Positions 12,770 to 63,779 of a DNA stretch of 64,000 bases are shown here, one piece after another. The translations under genes were made by a program, and so were the position numbers. Each line of letters opens with the position of its first letter. Positions within the stretch are counted from its first letter, which is position 1. The notes beneath the pieces were generated by a model, which worked only from the letters and a program-made list of their open reading frames with translations, was not told the origin of the DNA and made no database searches. This DNA comes from Liolophura sinensis (lineage: Eukaryota > Mollusca > Polyplacophora > Chitonida > Chitonidae), in NCBI RefSeq assembly GCF_032854445.1, contig NC_088300.1, positions 24,779,608 to 24,843,607 of the forward strand, given 5' to 3'.

Positions 12770-13640
12770 GGCTTCCGTATTTAACCCATCATTCAGTTAC
12801 ACCGGACAGGGCGTACCTGTTAGTCAACCTTACCCGACAATGCAGTCACATAATGGCCTGACAGCGTGTACCTGTTTGTCAAACTGACCCGGCCATTCAT
12901 TCGCATAATGGCCAGACAGCGTGTACCTGTTTGTCAGACTGACCTGACCATTCATTCGCATGATGGCCAGACAGCGTGTACCTGTTGGTCCGACTGACCC
13001 GACCATTCAGTCGCATGATTACCAGACAGCGCGTACCTGTTTGTCAGGCTGACCCGACCATTCATTCGCATGATTACAAGACAGCGTTTACCTGTTTGTC
13101 AGACTGACCCGACCATTCATTCGCATGGTGGCCAGACAGCGTGTACCTGTTGATTAGACTGGTCCGACCATTCAGTCGCATGATTACCAGACAGCGCGTA
13201 CCTGTTTGTCAGACTGACCCGACCATTCATTCGCATGATTACCAGACAGCGTGTACCTGTTTGTCAGACTGGCCCGACCATTCAGTTGCATGATGGCCAG
13301 ACAGCGTATACCTGTTTGTCAGCCTGACCCGACCATTCAGTCGCATGATGGCCAGACAGCGTGTACCTGTTTGTCAGACTGACCCGCCCATTCATTCGCA
13401 TGATGGCCAGACAGCGTATACCTGTTTGTCAAACTGACCTGACCATTCATTCGCATGATGGCCAGACAACGTGTAACTGTTGGTCAGACTTACCAGGCCA
13501 TTAAGTTGCATGATGACCAGACAAGGAGTACCTGTTGGTCAGACTTACCGGGCCATTAAATCGCATGATGTTCAGACAACGAGCACCTGTTGGTCCTCCT
13601 CATCGGATCATTCAGTAGCATTGCGACCAGACACCATTGG
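12770..13640. repeat. 55-bp satellite array, about 16 copies
   Basis: The GACAGCG core recurs at 12805, 12860, 12915, 12970, 13025, 13080, 13135, 13190, 13245, 13300, 13355, 13410, 13465, 13520, 13575 and 13630, exactly 55 bp apart each time. A typical unit reads GACAGCGTGTACCTGTTTGT, then CAGACTGACCCGACCATTC, then ATTCGCATGATGGCCA. The central copies are the most alike, and both edges decay by substitution without length change. Two sub-variants differ before the core (GATGGCCA versus GATTACCA). The unit is not a multiple of three and no coding use is seen. Confidence 0.93.
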
Positions 13641-42374: not shown

Positions 42375-45300
42375 CTATATGGCGTTGCGTAAATCGTTTG
42401 TAGTAATTTTGTCACGATGGTCAGTTTGACCATTCGACTCCACTGCTGAATGTGGTTGTCTGTGGATATTCGGGTAACTCTGACTTTGTTCTGATGTCCT
42501 TATATGGGCGTCCGTGGAATCACGAGAATCAGACGACGACAGCGATTGGTTGTCTGAGTCACTGGCGAAGGACTGGTTTGGTGTGTCCGCATGAGGAGCA
42601 AAGTTTAACCTCTGTCGTTTTGATTCACGAGGTTCTTCTTCGTCCGAGACATCAATCTGGGCGGTTTTGGAGAACGAACATTTGTCAGCATCTCGGGAGA
42701 TGGAGGTTGTGTCTTTCTTCTGTTTCCTCCATTTAGCCCGTCTGTTTTTGAACCATACCTATTAAAATAACAAAGTGACATAGATGTTACAAACGAGATT
42801 GACTATAAGACAATGTATTTGTAACTGAAGAAAAATAAGTTTATATTCCCAAGCATGAGGTTGTCACACTCAATGGCAAATGCAAACTAATTTCTTAGAA
42901 GCCATAAATAAAAACAAGAACAGAAAACCTTTAATTCTTTTGCAGGAGACTGGGAAAGTTTAATTATATTTTTCTTACACATTGCAAACGCACTAAAAAT
43001 CACCTGCTGAGCCACTCCAGGTACACAGAGGCTGGCTGTGTTTTCTTAATTGGCAGGTGATAAGTTTGAGTGTTTTTCAGTAACAGGTGGGTCGTTATAT
43101 ATACTAACGGTGTGTCTTTTACCCAAATATACAAAATGAACCATTCCTGTTTCCCACGATTTCATTGGGATTTACACAAGTCAAAAGTTGTTGCTGTTAC
43201 TGACAGGCGATAATTTTGCGCAAATTTCCTGCATACTAAAATCCTCTTCATAAAATTATTTGTCAGACGACAAATGAAAACACGTTTGCATTAGATTCCA
43301 CGTCCGATAGAAAGGCACATGCATGATCAACGATGATTTAGGGTTATCACGACCAATGTGCAGTGCATGTGTCCAAAAATTGCAGAAAATAAAGAGTTGA
43401 TATAAATCGGACAGGAGTAAATGAAAAGCTATCTGGATGTAATATGAAACAAATAGGGGTCAAATTTAACGTATACTTTAGTGGTTAATGACAGAGCGTT
43501 AACGGAACTGTAGCCACGTGAAATCTGACGACGGGAACTTGACATCGAACCTGGATGATCCCTATTTAACGCCTCTCATTTTACGTTTATCGACGGGTCT
43601 CCTTTCAAACCAAAGCCTTAAAAAGTTGTGAATCCATAGCTGAATTGGCCATTAAAAGCAAGGTGGCAGAAAGTGTCGGGTTTTTGGGTATAAGGTAATT
43701 AGTCAGCCGACCACGTGTCTGGTAAGGAATGACATTGCCGTTCCGATTAACGCCTCCAATCAAAGACTGTTGACAATCAGGGGTTTAAACTCAGAAACCC
43801 CGAACTGTTCACACGGGTTCACTTTTTTTAGTTTAGCATTTTTTTCTACACAGAAAGCTCGTTTCTTTCAAAATCTGTTTTCAGAATGAAACAACCGCAA
43901 TGCATATGCTTGGAGAAATATTTTGAGTATGACTGGATGATAAGGGTATAGAGTGGGCGATTTTCAGGCAAACTATTACACACGAAAAAAATTGCTGTTT
44001 TTTTTTTTGGGGAGGTGGGGGCTGATGTTAAGAAGATGTATAAGATCAGTCGTTTCATCGTTGTATTATAAATGCAGTTTCGAACTTTCAGTCTTTTCAG
44101 GGAAACTGAGGCATTTTTATTACTGCCATTTAGACCTATTAAGAATTAATAACCTATTAAGAATTAATAACCTATTAAGAAAGATATAAATGCTATTAAT
44201 CTTACCTCTACTCGTTCCTCTGCCAGATCTACTTTAGCAGCGATTTCTTCTCTCATCATAACGTCTGGATAGTGAGTTTCCTGGAAAGTTTTCTCCAGAA
44301 CGTCCAATTGGTCCTCGGTGAAAATTGTCCGATGGCGGCGTTTCCTCTTCTGGGATCCTGGTGTCATATCCACGGGGTAGCTGAAGCCAGCGAATGGCGG
44401 GTACCAGGCTGATATGATAGACAAATCACACTGCTTAAATTCAGCGCTAAAATCTCATGGTTTACGAACAATTGTTGTCATACAAATCAGGAAGTCATTT
44501 TTTTTTCTTTCCCCCACCCTGCCGACCCAGGAATACTTTGCTTTAATCACAGAAAAAAGCAACTCGTTTGCGGGTATTCGAAAATCAAAATTGAATTTCG
44601 CTTACAAACAAGAAGGTTTTAAATGTTATTTGCATTTAATATTCCAGCAGAATCTTGATGTATACTACCCATTTGCCTCCCAAACCACTAAGGTAACCTT
44701 TTGGTCAAACAAAATGACGACTACTCCATATACTGATGCTCATTAAAAAAACCACATGTAGTAACAGGTGGAATTAAATAATTTAAGTACAGAAATCGCA
44801 ACCCCACTAAGCAGTATTCAAACATCAGTCTTGTGGGGGCACGTGGGTTTAAAAGGGCAACTGTTTGGTTAAGTTGAGGATTGCTTTCCAGGAATTGCCT
44901 TAAATGGATTCGGTGTATTACGCTGTGGGAATTCTGCGGGTTTAACCCGACACCCCGCTAGGCAGTTGTATGGCATTGCCTTCGCTCAATTTAGGCCATA
45001 ATTCCAATGGTGTCTTGTAATTTAGATCAGGGGCCAACTTTTCGATACGAACAGGCGAAAAGGAAGCTGACAAAAATCCGAGATGAGAAAATGGGCGAAG
45101 AACTTCCGTGAAGTAATAATGCCTCATTATCAGCTCCATTTACTGCATTAAGTTCCAATCTCGAAAGTAATTATCTTTTCATCGGCGAGGCAAATTTTCG
45201 GAAGACTTAGAAAGTCTATGGATTGATTAAAGTTCTAAATTTACCGAATTCATTTAAAACAGATTAATTTTCCGAATTCTGATGATTCTGGAAATGGCCA

Positions 45301-60100: not shown

Positions 60101-63100
60101 GTCAGTAACATGCCATATTTTGGTGGTTTGTACAGGTAACACTCATTTCCTCCGTCTTTAACTATTGTAAAGGTGGAAAATTCAGGAGCGTGGCATTAAA
60201 CAACAGCCAAATAAATAAATCTGACTACAGCATAAAACAACAATCATGTACTTGTAAAATATATAAATGTGTGTTTTCTTTCTCCTCCAGAATGAAGGCA
60301 ATGTGCTGAGGTTTGACTCTCATGGAGCCGAGAATGTGATGCATCAGCCACTTCATGCACCATTTGCTGATGACAACCAGCCTGTGGGATTTGGAGAGAA
60401 AGTCTATGGACCACAAACAGTCTTCAAAACTGGTGTCCTGGGAAAGTATGAACTACGCGAAGTGAAGAAAGGCAGTGGACCAGGTAATTCTTCTATACTT
60501 ATCCGATGTATTTGACGTAAAAAAATCCCCCCCCCCCCCCCCCCCCCCCAAATGCATTTTAGGTGCATTCATTACAAGAATTTTACAATGGATCATGACA
60601 ACAGTTAATTTATACATTTCGTCATTGATTAATTTCACCTGGAAGATGTTCCTTGGTGCTGGGTTATGCCTTCACTCCTTTTGGGTAATACTGGGTATGG
60701 GAGAAGTTAAGTATGTTCGTCACTCAATTTGGACTTATATCTCTAGAGTAGCGAGTGATTTGCACATCAAAGCCAACATCTTCTGGTTTGGCGTTTTTCT
60801 CACGGCAAGGCCTGACTGGCATTAAGTTAATAAAAGAGCAGTGTGTTCATGTCATTGTGTTTCGAGGTAAGAAAATTGTGCCGATGTAAATTATTGTATT
60901 TATTTATTTGATTGGTGTTTTATGCTGTACTCAAGAATATTTCACTTATACGACGACGGCCAGCATTATGGTTGGAGGAAACGGGCGGAAACCCATGATC
61001 ATCTGCAGATTGCTGGCAGACCTTCCCACATACAGCCGGAGGGGAAGCCAGCATAAGCTGGACGAACTCACGGTGACGGCATTGGTGAGAGGCACCTGGT
61101 TTGTTATGCTGTGCTAGTATTCTAACCAACTGAGCCACGGAGGCCCCGCCGATGTAAATTACACTTCTCAGCTAATTTAGGAGTGCATTTTGGTTCAGTT
61201 TTCAAGAATGACAGACTGTAACATATTACATTTGGTGCTGAAACTCGTTCAGGTTTCAGCAAACCTCAAAGACCTTGTAGAACTCTCAGAACTACTAAAA
61301 AAGAGTAGCTTGGTCAAGGATGAAATTTTAGGTCAGATAAAATTATGTACAGTATTAATCGGTTTGTCTAAATTGCAGACGGGATAGGAGAATCATAAAA
61401 CTCACGGGTAACATTTAATATGCCAGTCCTCAAATGCAAAATCTCTCCTACTCTGCACTAAACATGCTAAATGGTTAGTGAATTTTGCTGATTCTCCTTT
61501 TTATCATCCTTCAGGTGAAAATGGTGAACCAGTTTACACAACGATGGAGGAGAAAGCAGCAGCTGATAAGTCCATCCGAGACTATGGCTTTAACATGGTG
61601 GCCAGTGATAAGGTGTCCTTGGACCGTGTGGTTCCTGATACACGAATGGAAGAGTAAGTTCAAGCTGGTGGTACCAGCCTGGATAGCACAGTTGGTTGAG
61701 CGTCCGCTTCTGGAGCGGTAGATCCAGGATCAATCCTGGGTCGAGTCACACCTAAGACTTTGAAAGAGGAAGTTGTAACTTCCTCGCTTGGCCTTCAGCA
61801 TGAAGGGGATAGTGCGACGACTGGGTGACCCATATCAGTATAATGGCTCGGGTGGGTCAGCTTACTTGCCTTCGGGGGGCCTCCGTGGCTCATTTGATTA
61901 GCGCGCTAGCACAGTGTAATGACTCAGGAGCCTCTCACCAATGCGGTCGCTGTGAGTTCAAGTCCAGCTCATGCTGGCTTCCTCTCTGGCCGTAAGTGGG
62001 AAGGTCTGCCAGCAACCTGCGGATGGTCGTGGGTTTCCCCCGGGCTCTGCCTGTTTTCCACCCACCATAATGCTGGCTGCCATCGTATAAGTGAAATATT
62101 CTTGAGTATGGCGTAAAACACCAATCAAATAAATCAAATCAAATACTTGCCTTCGGTAAATCATCTCAGTGAAGCAGCACTAGATAAAAGAGGGGTGGAA
62201 ATTTGTCCTGCAACAAGAACACATTACATACACCCTAAGGATTCCTTCGTCGTCATATGACTGAAAAATTGTTGAGTACGACGTCAAACCCCAAGCACTC
62301 ACTCACTCACTCATTCAAGCTGGTGGTAGTCTTCATACTGAAGAACCTGGCACTCATCTCCTATAATACGATTCTTTTTCAGGCATGAAGAAAAAATTCA
62401 ATTTTGCTACTTGTTACCACAACTCCACAGCCTCTATTAAACATGGCTTCCATACCCAGTGAAAGTGATTTGTTTTGGCACTAATTGTTGTGTTAACTTC
62501 AAGGTTTGTAAATATGTGCCCCACTACCTAGAATGGTGTAGTCTTCTGTACTTTGGCAATCCCAGATGTTAAGTGTGATTCTTTCAGGTGTAAATACTGG
62601 CAGTAACCTGTAAAGCTGATGTAGCTTGGAAATCTCTACTGTGGATGTGATACCTGTGATTGTTTCTGGTGTAAATAGTGGCACTACTAATTAAGTACCT
62701 GTCATTATTTCAGTTGTAAATAGTGGCACTACTAATTAAATGCCTGTGATTATTCGGGTGTAAATACCGACACTACTAATCAGGTACCTGTGATTATTTC
62801 AGGTGTAAGTACTGGCACTATCAATGAAGTACCTGTGATGATTTCAGGTCCAAATACTAACACTATTAATTAAGCACCTGTGATTATTTCAGGTGTAAAT
62901 ACTGGCACTACCCAGAGAAACTTCCGAAGGCGAGTGTAATCCTTGTGTTTCACAATGAAGGCTGGTCTACCTTAATCCGCACAGTTCACAGCGTTATTAA
63001 CATGTCACCTCCAGAGCTTTTACATGAAATAGTCATGGTGGATGATTACAGTGATAAAGGTAGGCCTTAGGTTTATCACACTGCAGCTTATCCAGCTGGT

Positions 63101-63779
63101 AATAATACTGGATGTCTAGGACCATACATGTATGATATAATTACATTTGATTTTATGTACAAATTTCATATCTGACTATTGCCATTGTAACTTCTGCAAT
63201 GGGAGCTTGTTTAATGATACGTCCAGTTCAGACAGAGACTCTGGCTGTTAACAGCACTTAATAAGTTAGCTGTGAAAATTCAGGTTTAGGTGTTCTCATG
63301 TAGCATGTCTAGGACACCTGCCATGTTATACTATGTGCATGTATGCTGTAACTTCCCATTACAGTCCATAAAAAAGACTGTTTTCCAAGTGTTATGTTTC
63401 AGAGGATTAAACCCATCACATAGGCATAAATATTGACATACTCTCATAGTTTTACAAAGTTGCATGTAGTGTCAACTGATCAGTTATAAGTCTGAAAAGT
63501 TGTTCCTTGATATTTTTTGCCAACCTTACCATCATGCCTGTTTTACTTATTTTACTACTTTTTCCTTTCAGAGCACTTAAAACTCAAACTGAAAAATTAT
63601 TTAAAAAGATTCAAAGGGAAAGTGAAACTTTTCCGCAATGAGAAACGCGAGGGTTTGATTAGAACAAGAACTCTTGGAGCTCAATATTCTACAGGGGAAG
63701 TAATCATCTTCCTTGATGCCCACTGTGAGTGCAATTACAACTGGTTACCTCCCTTGTTGGCAAGAATTGCCTATGACAG
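57188..63779 (+). CDS. GALNT7: Polypeptide N-acetylgalactosaminyltransferase 7 type, 5' part (5 exons in window)
   Basis: Exons are 57188-57325, 60291-60483, 61515-61653, 62893-63059 and 63572-63779. All have GT/AG borders and join in frame for 281 codons plus two bases. The protein is a type II Golgi membrane enzyme: a short basic cytosolic end, a membrane segment at residues 7-29, a stem, then the start of a GT27 catalytic domain. Diagnostic strings are YGFNMVASD (134-142), EECKYWHY (156-163), [17 protein letters not shown] (175-191) and VDDYSDKEHLK (206-216). The Mn-binding DxH is FLDAHCE (259-265, D261 and H263). These match GALNT7 better than other family members. GALNT7 adds GalNAc from UDP-GalNAc to Ser/Thr of partly glycosylated mucin-type substrates. 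The remaining catalytic part and the ricin-type lectin domain lie beyond the window. Confidence 0.93.
57371..57470 (+). mobile_element. SINE remnant in GALNT7 intron 1
   Basis: GCCTCCGTGGTGTAGTG resembles the main-family head. It jumps to CTATCGTATAAGCCAAATAT and TCTTGAGTAAAG of the 3' block. Most of the centre is lost. It starts about 45 nt after the exon 1 donor. Confidence 0.55.
59335..59570 (-). mobile_element. Main-family SINE in GALNT7 intron 1, minus orientation
   Basis: On the plus strand: GATTGGTGTTTTACGCTGAC, GGTGGGAGGAAACCGGGCAG, GAGAGGAAGCCAACATGAGC and a decayed head near CCACTTGGTTACAGAG. It is the reverse orientation relative to the gene. Confidence 0.85.
59714..59915 (+). mobile_element. 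Main-family SINE in GALNT7 intron 1, plus orientation
   Basis: GGTGGTTAGCGTGTCAGCAC (head part), CTCACCAATGTGGTCAGTG, GCTGGCTTCCTCTCCGG and GAGTGAAATATTCTTGACTG are present. The region before CATAATGCTGG is diverged. About 140 nt separates it from the oppositely oriented copy at 59335-59570, so the two form an inverted SINE pair. Confidence 0.8.
60527..60549. repeat. C23 homopolymer
   Basis: Twenty-three consecutive C, 43 nt inside GALNT7 intron 2 from its donor. It could form an i-motif (or a G-quadruplex on the other strand). The exact length may be a sequencing estimate. Confidence 0.9.
60894..61147 (-). mobile_element. Main-family tRNA SINE, full length, in GALNT7 intron 2
   Basis: On the plus strand: TTTATTTATTTGATTGGTG, CTCAAGAATATTTCACTTAT, GGAAGCCAGCATAAGCTGG and AACTGAGCCACGGAGGCCCC. 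A perfect 14-bp target-site duplication GCCGATGTAAATTA flanks it (60880-60893 and 61148-61161), proving retroposition and exact borders. Confidence 0.97.
61674..62313 (+). mobile_element. Second-family tRNA SINE in GALNT7 intron 3, interrupted
   Basis: The head CCAGCCTGGATAGCACAGTT and B box GATCCAGGATCAATCCTGG lead to a body ending CATATGACTGAAAAATTGTT, then GAGTACGACGTCAAACC and a CACT repeat tail. A perfect 15-bp duplication TTCAAGCTGGTGGTA flanks it (61659-61673 and 62314-62328). The left duplication starts at the last base of the GTAAGT donor of exon 3. Without the nested element it is about 359 bp long. Confidence 0.96.
61876..62143 (+). mobile_element. Main-family tRNA SINE nested inside the second-family SINE
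   Basis: The full-length element runs from the head GGGGCCTCCGTGGCTCATT to the tail AAATAAATCAAATCAAA. The 13-bp duplication TACTTGCCTTCGG (61863-61875 and 62144-62156) is perfect and lies within the host SINE body. The main family was therefore active after insertion of the host element. Confidence 0.97.
62588..62912 (+). repeat. 45-bp tandem repeat carrying copies of the GALNT7 exon 4 acceptor
   Basis: The junction-like string ATTTCAG then GTGTAAATACTGGCACTA begins its exon-like part at 62669, 62714, 62758, 62803, 62848 and 62893. The steps are 45, 44, 45, 45 and 45 bp, and an outlying copy lies at 62588. The last copy (62893) is the true start of exon 4. AG is intact at 62588, 62714, 62803 and 62848 and lost at 62669 (TG) and 62758 (GG). 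Units also contain ACCTGTGATTATTTC upstream of the AG. Confidence 0.93.

Follow-up and report, generated by a model that had tools for sequence, protein, structure and literature searches.

The 3' end of intron 3 of GALNT7, on the + strand of the window analysed here (the whole 64-kb stretch of DNA, C6:24779608-24843607 of a 609-Mb genome), carries a complete array at 62562-62911 in which the end of the intron and the start of exon 4 are repeated together. It has seven copies, each made of 26 nt of intron end and 19 nt of exon start, and the last is the genuine one. We think it quite probable that this array is a mirage, as boundary-spanning arrays have been called in lancelets, and that it is tolerated by the gene without any regulatory role being needed. 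Many other arrays of this kind are present in the same mollusc genome. The initial annotation had regarded expansion from a splice site as unusual. This view is not supported, as the class has been published for amphioxus and recurs here at 10 of 155 other exon matches (Wilson 95% interval 3.5-11.5%), so that expansion across a splice site is not unusual in this genome. We lean towards the broader view that boundary-duplicating minisatellites are no lancelet oddity, with about 6% of this mollusc's exons carrying rows of splice sites, often letter-identical, at acceptors as well as donors.

By sequence comparison the gene is GALNT7, the closest of the GalNAc-transferases of solved structure: the spliced exons 2-7 score 333.9 bits against GALNT7 (6iwq), compared with 312.4 for GALNT10 and 277.2 for GALNT1, in agreement with the original gene call. 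Exons 2 (60291-60483), 3 (61515-61653), 4 (62893-63059, 167 nt) and 5 (63572-63779), all on the + strand, lie in the window, two more lie beyond it in L003, and exons 2-7 form one open frame throughout. Exon 3 ends with ATGGAAGA/GTAAGT in phase 2 and reads in frame into exon 4. Its donor, AGA/GTAAGT (61651-61659), is weak, scoring 5.1 by position weight matrix (PWM) against 5.9 for the 5th percentile of 92 training donors; the donor of exon 4 reads AAG/GTAGGC. The genuine acceptor is placed at 62892 because the exon 3/4 junction, RMEE/CKYWHY, aligns without a gap to RQEECKYWHY of GALNT7. At the GALNT paralogs L005-L008, four of seven paralog loci (L009-L011 were left out), an AG lies one base 5' of the equivalent Cys codon. 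As this apparent intron position is common to them, the genuine acceptor looks older than the array, which seems to be a secondary addition. One of ten GALNT7 acceptors tested is spanned by an array. Intron 3 itself (61654-62892, +) is 1239 nt long with the array at its 3' end, and at about 61880-62150 it contains what we take to be a tRNA-derived, SINE-like repeat (GGGAAGGTCTGCCAGCAACCTG...GCGTAAAACACCAATCAAATAAA), also found beside exons at L118, L137 and L085. Elsewhere in the window, homeodomain coding pieces, presumably goosecoid-like, are present on the - strand at 42375-44454.

Two methods recovered the tandem unit of about 45 bp, with acceptor and exon 4 start, that had been proposed to end in the genuine copy. 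TRF reported 62651-62911 with a period of 45, 5.8 copies and 81% matches, and a scan of the + strand of the 64-kb window with the 18-nt exon start, allowing up to 5 mismatches, gave exactly 7 matches. The exon parts begin at 62588, 62669, 62714, 62758, 62803, 62848 and 62893 (the genuine one), with successive spacings of 81, 45, 44, 45, 45 and 45. The exon piece common to all copies is 19 nt long; it is followed by CCAGAG in the genuine exon and by intron in the other copies. An AG is kept at four of the six decoys, exactly those named in the initial annotation (62587, 62713, 62802 and 62847). Taken in order on the + strand, copy 1 with its spacer (62588-62668, 81 nt) follows an intact AG at 62586-62587; copy 2 (62669-62713, 45 nt) follows a lost acceptor, TG, at 62667-62668; copy 3 (62714-62757, shortened to 44 nt by a 1-nt deletion) follows an intact AG at 62712-62713; copy 4 (62758-62802, 45 nt) follows another lost acceptor, GG, at 62756-62757; copy 5 (62803-62847, 45 nt) and copy 6 (62848-62892, 45 nt) follow intact AGs at 62801-62802 and 62846-62847, and the unit end of copy 6 is the genuine acceptor.

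Ungapped pairwise identity among the copies is 64-91% when the copy with the 1-nt deletion is left out, and the outermost copy shows 51-73% ungapped identity to the others. The genuine copy is matched at 91% by that at 62714, 89% by that at 62803, 80% by that at 62848 and 58% by that at 62758, the last value being lowered by the 1-nt deletion. The copies are too diverged for a recent expansion. A dispersed element was also rejected, as a genome-wide search that skips very common words returned no second match to the array. One mononucleotide shuffle of the window left zero 30-mer repeat coverage; the array is therefore not a product of chance. Tandem repeats are error-prone, and the array might accordingly be suspected of being an assembly artefact. 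However, the divergence of the copies, the unique sequence on both sides and the single locus found argue against this, and we regard it as extremely improbable.

Translation confirmed the early stops that had been claimed for all four intact decoys. When exon 3 is joined to them, the reading frame ends after 6 residues at 62587 (ECKYWQ-stop), 3 at 62713 (DCK-stop), 8 at 62802 (ECKYWHYQ-stop) and 4 at 62847 (ESKY-stop, from the copy that begins at 62848). Only 62757 (with its AG lost), 62802 and 62847 match the frame of the real exon, due to the 44-nt unit and the first spacing of 81. In copies 2, 3 and 4, the junction between the exon piece and the intron piece that follows it reads TACTAAT, and in copy 5 TATCAAT. 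The corresponding TACTAAC at 62855-62861 (+), an altered copy of the exon codons TAC TGG C, is a candidate branch point with its A at 62860, 32 nt from 62892. We take TACTAAC and TACTAAT to be branch-point-like words by their consensus, and GALNT7 probably now has its branch point within a decayed copy of its own exon. A meaning in the Tyr-stop TACTAA words was considered and rejected: the four GALNT7 stops (TAA, TAG, TGA and TAA) come from four different words, TACTAAC supplying only that of 62847, and nearly all intact decoys seen in the arrays end or shift the frame anyway.

To place the GALNT7 array among other boundaries, a non-random sample of 156 exon matches from this one genome, GALNT7 exon 4 included, was used. 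All 18 GALNT exon-4 matches entered it, as did 78 of the 138 kinase matches, namely the 30 best-scoring ones and 48, mostly short exons, chosen by hand before repeats were inspected. From the 81 myosin matches it took the first 60. L097, an exon already represented by L023, was left out. Stops occur in some matches, which extend into introns or are broken, and the flanks of some adjacent myosin loci overlap. Candidates were flagged by 30-mers repeated within 350-400 nt at 24/30 identity and then read one by one. L126 was counted by copy register and not by the automatic mask, and the automatic acceptor of L059, about 15 nt off, was set by hand. Automatic calling, with GALNT7 included and L126 excluded, found 5 of 135 acceptors and 5 of 102 donors spanned.

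Besides GALNT7, acceptors are spanned at L057 (37 bp x 8.8), L059 (80 bp x 5.6), L131 (95 bp x 3.1) and L134 (32 bp x 11.2), and donors at L069 (67 bp x 6.5), L077 (65 bp x 5.3), L118 (66 bp x 5.5), L126 (32 bp x 7.5), L145 (124 bp x 3.9) and L150 (104 bp x 2.0). As the flanks of L042-L160 extend only 350-400 nt beyond the match, these copy numbers are lower bounds. Different parts of the sample give different frequencies, with spanning arrays at 0 of 37 loci in L005-L041, 4 of 58 in L042-L100 and 6 of 60 in L101-L160. In L005-L041, TRF found three arrays overlapping exon frames (L008, L021 and L031), none of which holds a copy of the boundary. Arrays near a boundary that do not cross it (L085, L087, L110, L124, L137, L139, L148 and also L007) were left uncounted. 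At L085 (1-350, a kinase exon on C6), an AT-rich 34-bp x 10.3 array with 98% matches stops about 50 nt before the exon match. At L007 (1694-2676, +), a GALNT paralog on C8, a 25-bp x 38 array starts about 60 nt past the exon donor; ahead of the array lies the exon end copied in decayed form (GTGACTTCATCAGTAAAGG), and the unit and the exon end share TGACTTCAGTA, so that this may perhaps be a decayed donor mirage. C8 also carries eight molluscan-type haemocyanin beta-sandwich units in tandem; these were seen in none of 14 control genomes, presumably prokaryotic, and mark the host as a mollusc.

The 11 arrays hold 62 decoy copies in view, between 1 and 10 per array, and AG or GT is kept in 56 of them. 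This list contains five of the six GALNT7 decoys (62757, beside the 1-nt deletion, fails the mismatch limit), five shorter sub-copies of L118 and three matches that look decayed or due to chance (L057 79, L077 968 and L126 499); without the sub-copies and these three matches, 51 intact decoys were scored. The genuine core is identical or nearly so in 31 of the 56 intact decoys (15 acceptors with 22 or 23 of 23 positions and 16 donors with 9/9). For the PWMs, the sample supplied 124 acceptors and 92 donors, in place of an acceptor model from nine sites that was too noisy; as the 124 and 92 sites were called by consensus, the models favour consensus-like sites. By these scores 39 of the 51 intact decoys equal or exceed the genuine site (ties within 0.05 included). 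Since the genuine site is equalled or surpassed by most decoys, local site strength by PWM does not explain correct splicing.

The decoys might compete with the genuine acceptor and send part of the transcripts into nonsense-mediated decay, thereby setting the dose of GALNT7. The initial annotation had left the choice between such a control device and a tolerated burden; the decoys and early stops were borne out, and burden is the favoured part, whereas control finds no support in the sequence. For poison splicing or kinetic control speak the early stops at the four intact decoys, the weakness of the exon 3 donor and the two decoys that outscore the genuine acceptor (62802 at 8.1 and 62587 at 7.6, compared with 7.1 at 62892). 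However, two of the six decoys have lost their AG, and the copy upstream of the exon piece of 62847 (copy 5) has TATCAAT instead of TACTAAT. Across the 11 arrays, in which such events are few, mismatches to the majority base at decoy AG or GT (4/110) are not distinguishable from those at other array bases (113/1648, p=0.24), and neither preservation nor purging of these dinucleotides was detected. The early stops are not special to GALNT7 either: across the arrays, the reading frame would be ended or shifted by 55 of the 56 intact decoys in view. Comparable arrays occur at unrelated genes and at donors, with units of 32-124 bp of which only 2 of 11 are divisible by 3. A meaning in the frame of the 45-bp unit (3 x 15) was likewise rejected, the other units being 32, 32, 37, 65, 66, 67, 80, 95, 104 and 124 bp. 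A regulatory role is thus unsupported by the sequence, and we consider it improbable. Leaky or regulated use of 62587 or 62802, both above the genuine site in predicted score, may nevertheless occur and would count against the tolerated reading.

Another possibility is dual-specific or recursive (ratchet) splicing, in which use of a decoy regenerates a donor, AG/GTGTAA, that is spliced again to the real acceptor, or in which the units become introns. Most GALNT7 units are indeed of the GT...AG form, several with TACTAAT or TACTAAC, and the boundaries at 62587, 62802 and 62892 read AG/GTGTAA. A tandem duplication over an acceptor has also made an intron in potato RdRp, and human AGGT sites can work both ways. 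However, AGA/GTGTAA scores only -4.0 as a donor, while none of the 92 consensus-called training donors falls below 2 (5th percentile 5.9). A better GT/GTAAGT at 62802 (4.7) leaves a frameshift of 2 nt, and AG/GT is found in only two of the five acceptor arrays (L004 and L134). Rescue of GALNT7 transcripts by recursive splicing would therefore be unlikely by these donor scores, and we hold this explanation as a whole to be very improbable.

If splice sites themselves seeded the expansion, with transcription or splicing intermediates promoting duplication of the boundary, this could account for 11 boundary arrays, at both exon ends, in a sample of one genome. However, repeat coverage declines toward and into exons without a local peak at the boundary, at acceptors or at donors (135 acceptors and 102 donors called). 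On the acceptor side it falls from 13.3% at 200-340 nt into the intron through 9.9, 7.7, 5.5 and 4.6% to 3.7% at 0-10 nt, and inside the exon further to 3.5, 2.0 and 1.0% (the last at 30-60 nt). Donor-side values, starting from the same distance, are 13.7, 11.9, 10.6, 7.8, 6.9 and 5.9%, followed by 4.6, 3.3 and 2.2% within the exon. The mask requires 8 nt of repeat on each side, and this edge effect may explain part of the fall. Beyond 340 nt from the exon, where mostly the repeat-poor, long-flank loci L004-L041 contribute, coverage is 6.3% on the acceptor side and 8.9% on the donor side, so that how strongly intron and boundary differ varies with the choice of loci. Overall coverage is 0.45% in exon-match interiors and 7.1% in flanks, compared with 2.0% in the window and 7.6% in L003. 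The window also contains a 55-bp x 14.4 minisatellite with 87% matches (12805-13595), connected with no recognised exon. As there is no boundary peak, the arrays at boundaries look like the tail of a minisatellite load that introns carry generally and that thins toward exons, and seeding by splice sites appears decidedly improbable.

Under the reading that we prefer, a tolerated mirage, a 45-bp segment lying by chance across the 3' splice site of intron 3 would have been tandemly duplicated again and again, by slippage or unequal exchange. Tandem duplication across a boundary should leave one full copy flush against the exon body, and it is because one such complete copy always remains there that the gene would stay intact. 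The spliceosome most likely picks 62892 through the exon body behind it and the exon 4 donor, which together would define the exon, and the upstream copies would normally leave with the intron. Occasional use of a decoy would give a stop after 3-8 residues and probably lead to nonsense-mediated decay.

It is mostly with engineered duplications that the choice of the spliceosome among near-identical sites has been studied. Many natural tests of that choice seem to be on offer in this genome, with 1-10 decoys in view, units of 32-124 bp and both types of site, and RNA-seq of this one species could separate the effects of site strength, transcription order, proximity and exon context. Judging from the arrangement of the copies, a normal protein must require use of the copy adjoining the exon body, which is the last at acceptors and the first at donors. 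Such an exon-proximal winner would be predicted by exon definition; at acceptors it would not follow from a first-come or nearest-donor rule. If the frequency holds genome-wide, very many exons would test splice choice naturally, the copy in contact with the exon body having to win, the winners would contradict simple 5'-to-3' or proximity rules at acceptors, and the species would carry a standing supply of half-made introns.

Within the literature searched, in the parts of the reports on which we draw, boundary-spanning arrays are called mirages only in lancelets; the search also gave a single duplication in potato and boundary repeats in human, while the portions of PMC3862624 and PMC12783039 at hand do not describe boundary arrays. 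The amphioxus mirages, as given in such portions, are minisatellite-like tandem duplications over intron/exon boundaries at 5' and 3' ends, found in Adh3, troponin C, the globins BflGb6 and BflGb9, and PGBD5 (PMC3087553, PMC3902484). AG or GT is present in many of their copies but not all, their length is unstable, with copy number differing between haplotypes or somatically, inner copies are homogenised while the array edges are diverged, and regular splicing is reported to be undisturbed, as judged by RT-PCR; units are 10-72 bp in Adh3, 150-160 and 157 bp in the globins, and 60 and 108 bp in PGBD5 (PMC3087553, PMC3902484). Like them, the GALNT7 copies hold intron and exon sequence of one boundary, with AG in four of six decoys. 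The differences are the mollusc host, the gene and the 45-bp unit. Moreover, about 4% of sampled boundaries are spanned here, whereas the amphioxus cases, in the passages available, are described gene by gene.

In human paralogs, variable internal tandem repeats located where exons meet introns affect splice choice (PMC2812944). They are, as at GALNT7, minisatellites at exon-intron boundaries, but they lie in recent segmental duplicates and come with transcript evidence for novel introns, unlike GALNT7. In human UBC and VCX3A, tandem units with AGGT at their bounds contain dual-specific splice sites (PMC10809524). Tandem units with such bounds are also found at GALNT7, although the UBC repeats are coding and their sites serve as donor and acceptor, whereas the GALNT7 copies are intronic and donor-weak. 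In potato RdRp, an intron was gained through tandem duplication of an intron end and exon start, the exonic piece containing a cryptic GTAAG (PMC4974935). Both features are shared with GALNT7; however, potato RdRp has a single duplication that is now a spliced intron, while GALNT7 carries six decoys, with early stops and with regenerated donors that are weak. As potato RdRp and the human dual-specific sites show that such units can become introns, the array could by analogy be possible raw material for introns rather than a demonstrated intron. The mirage is a known class, and its occurrence in a mollusc is new within the literature searched.
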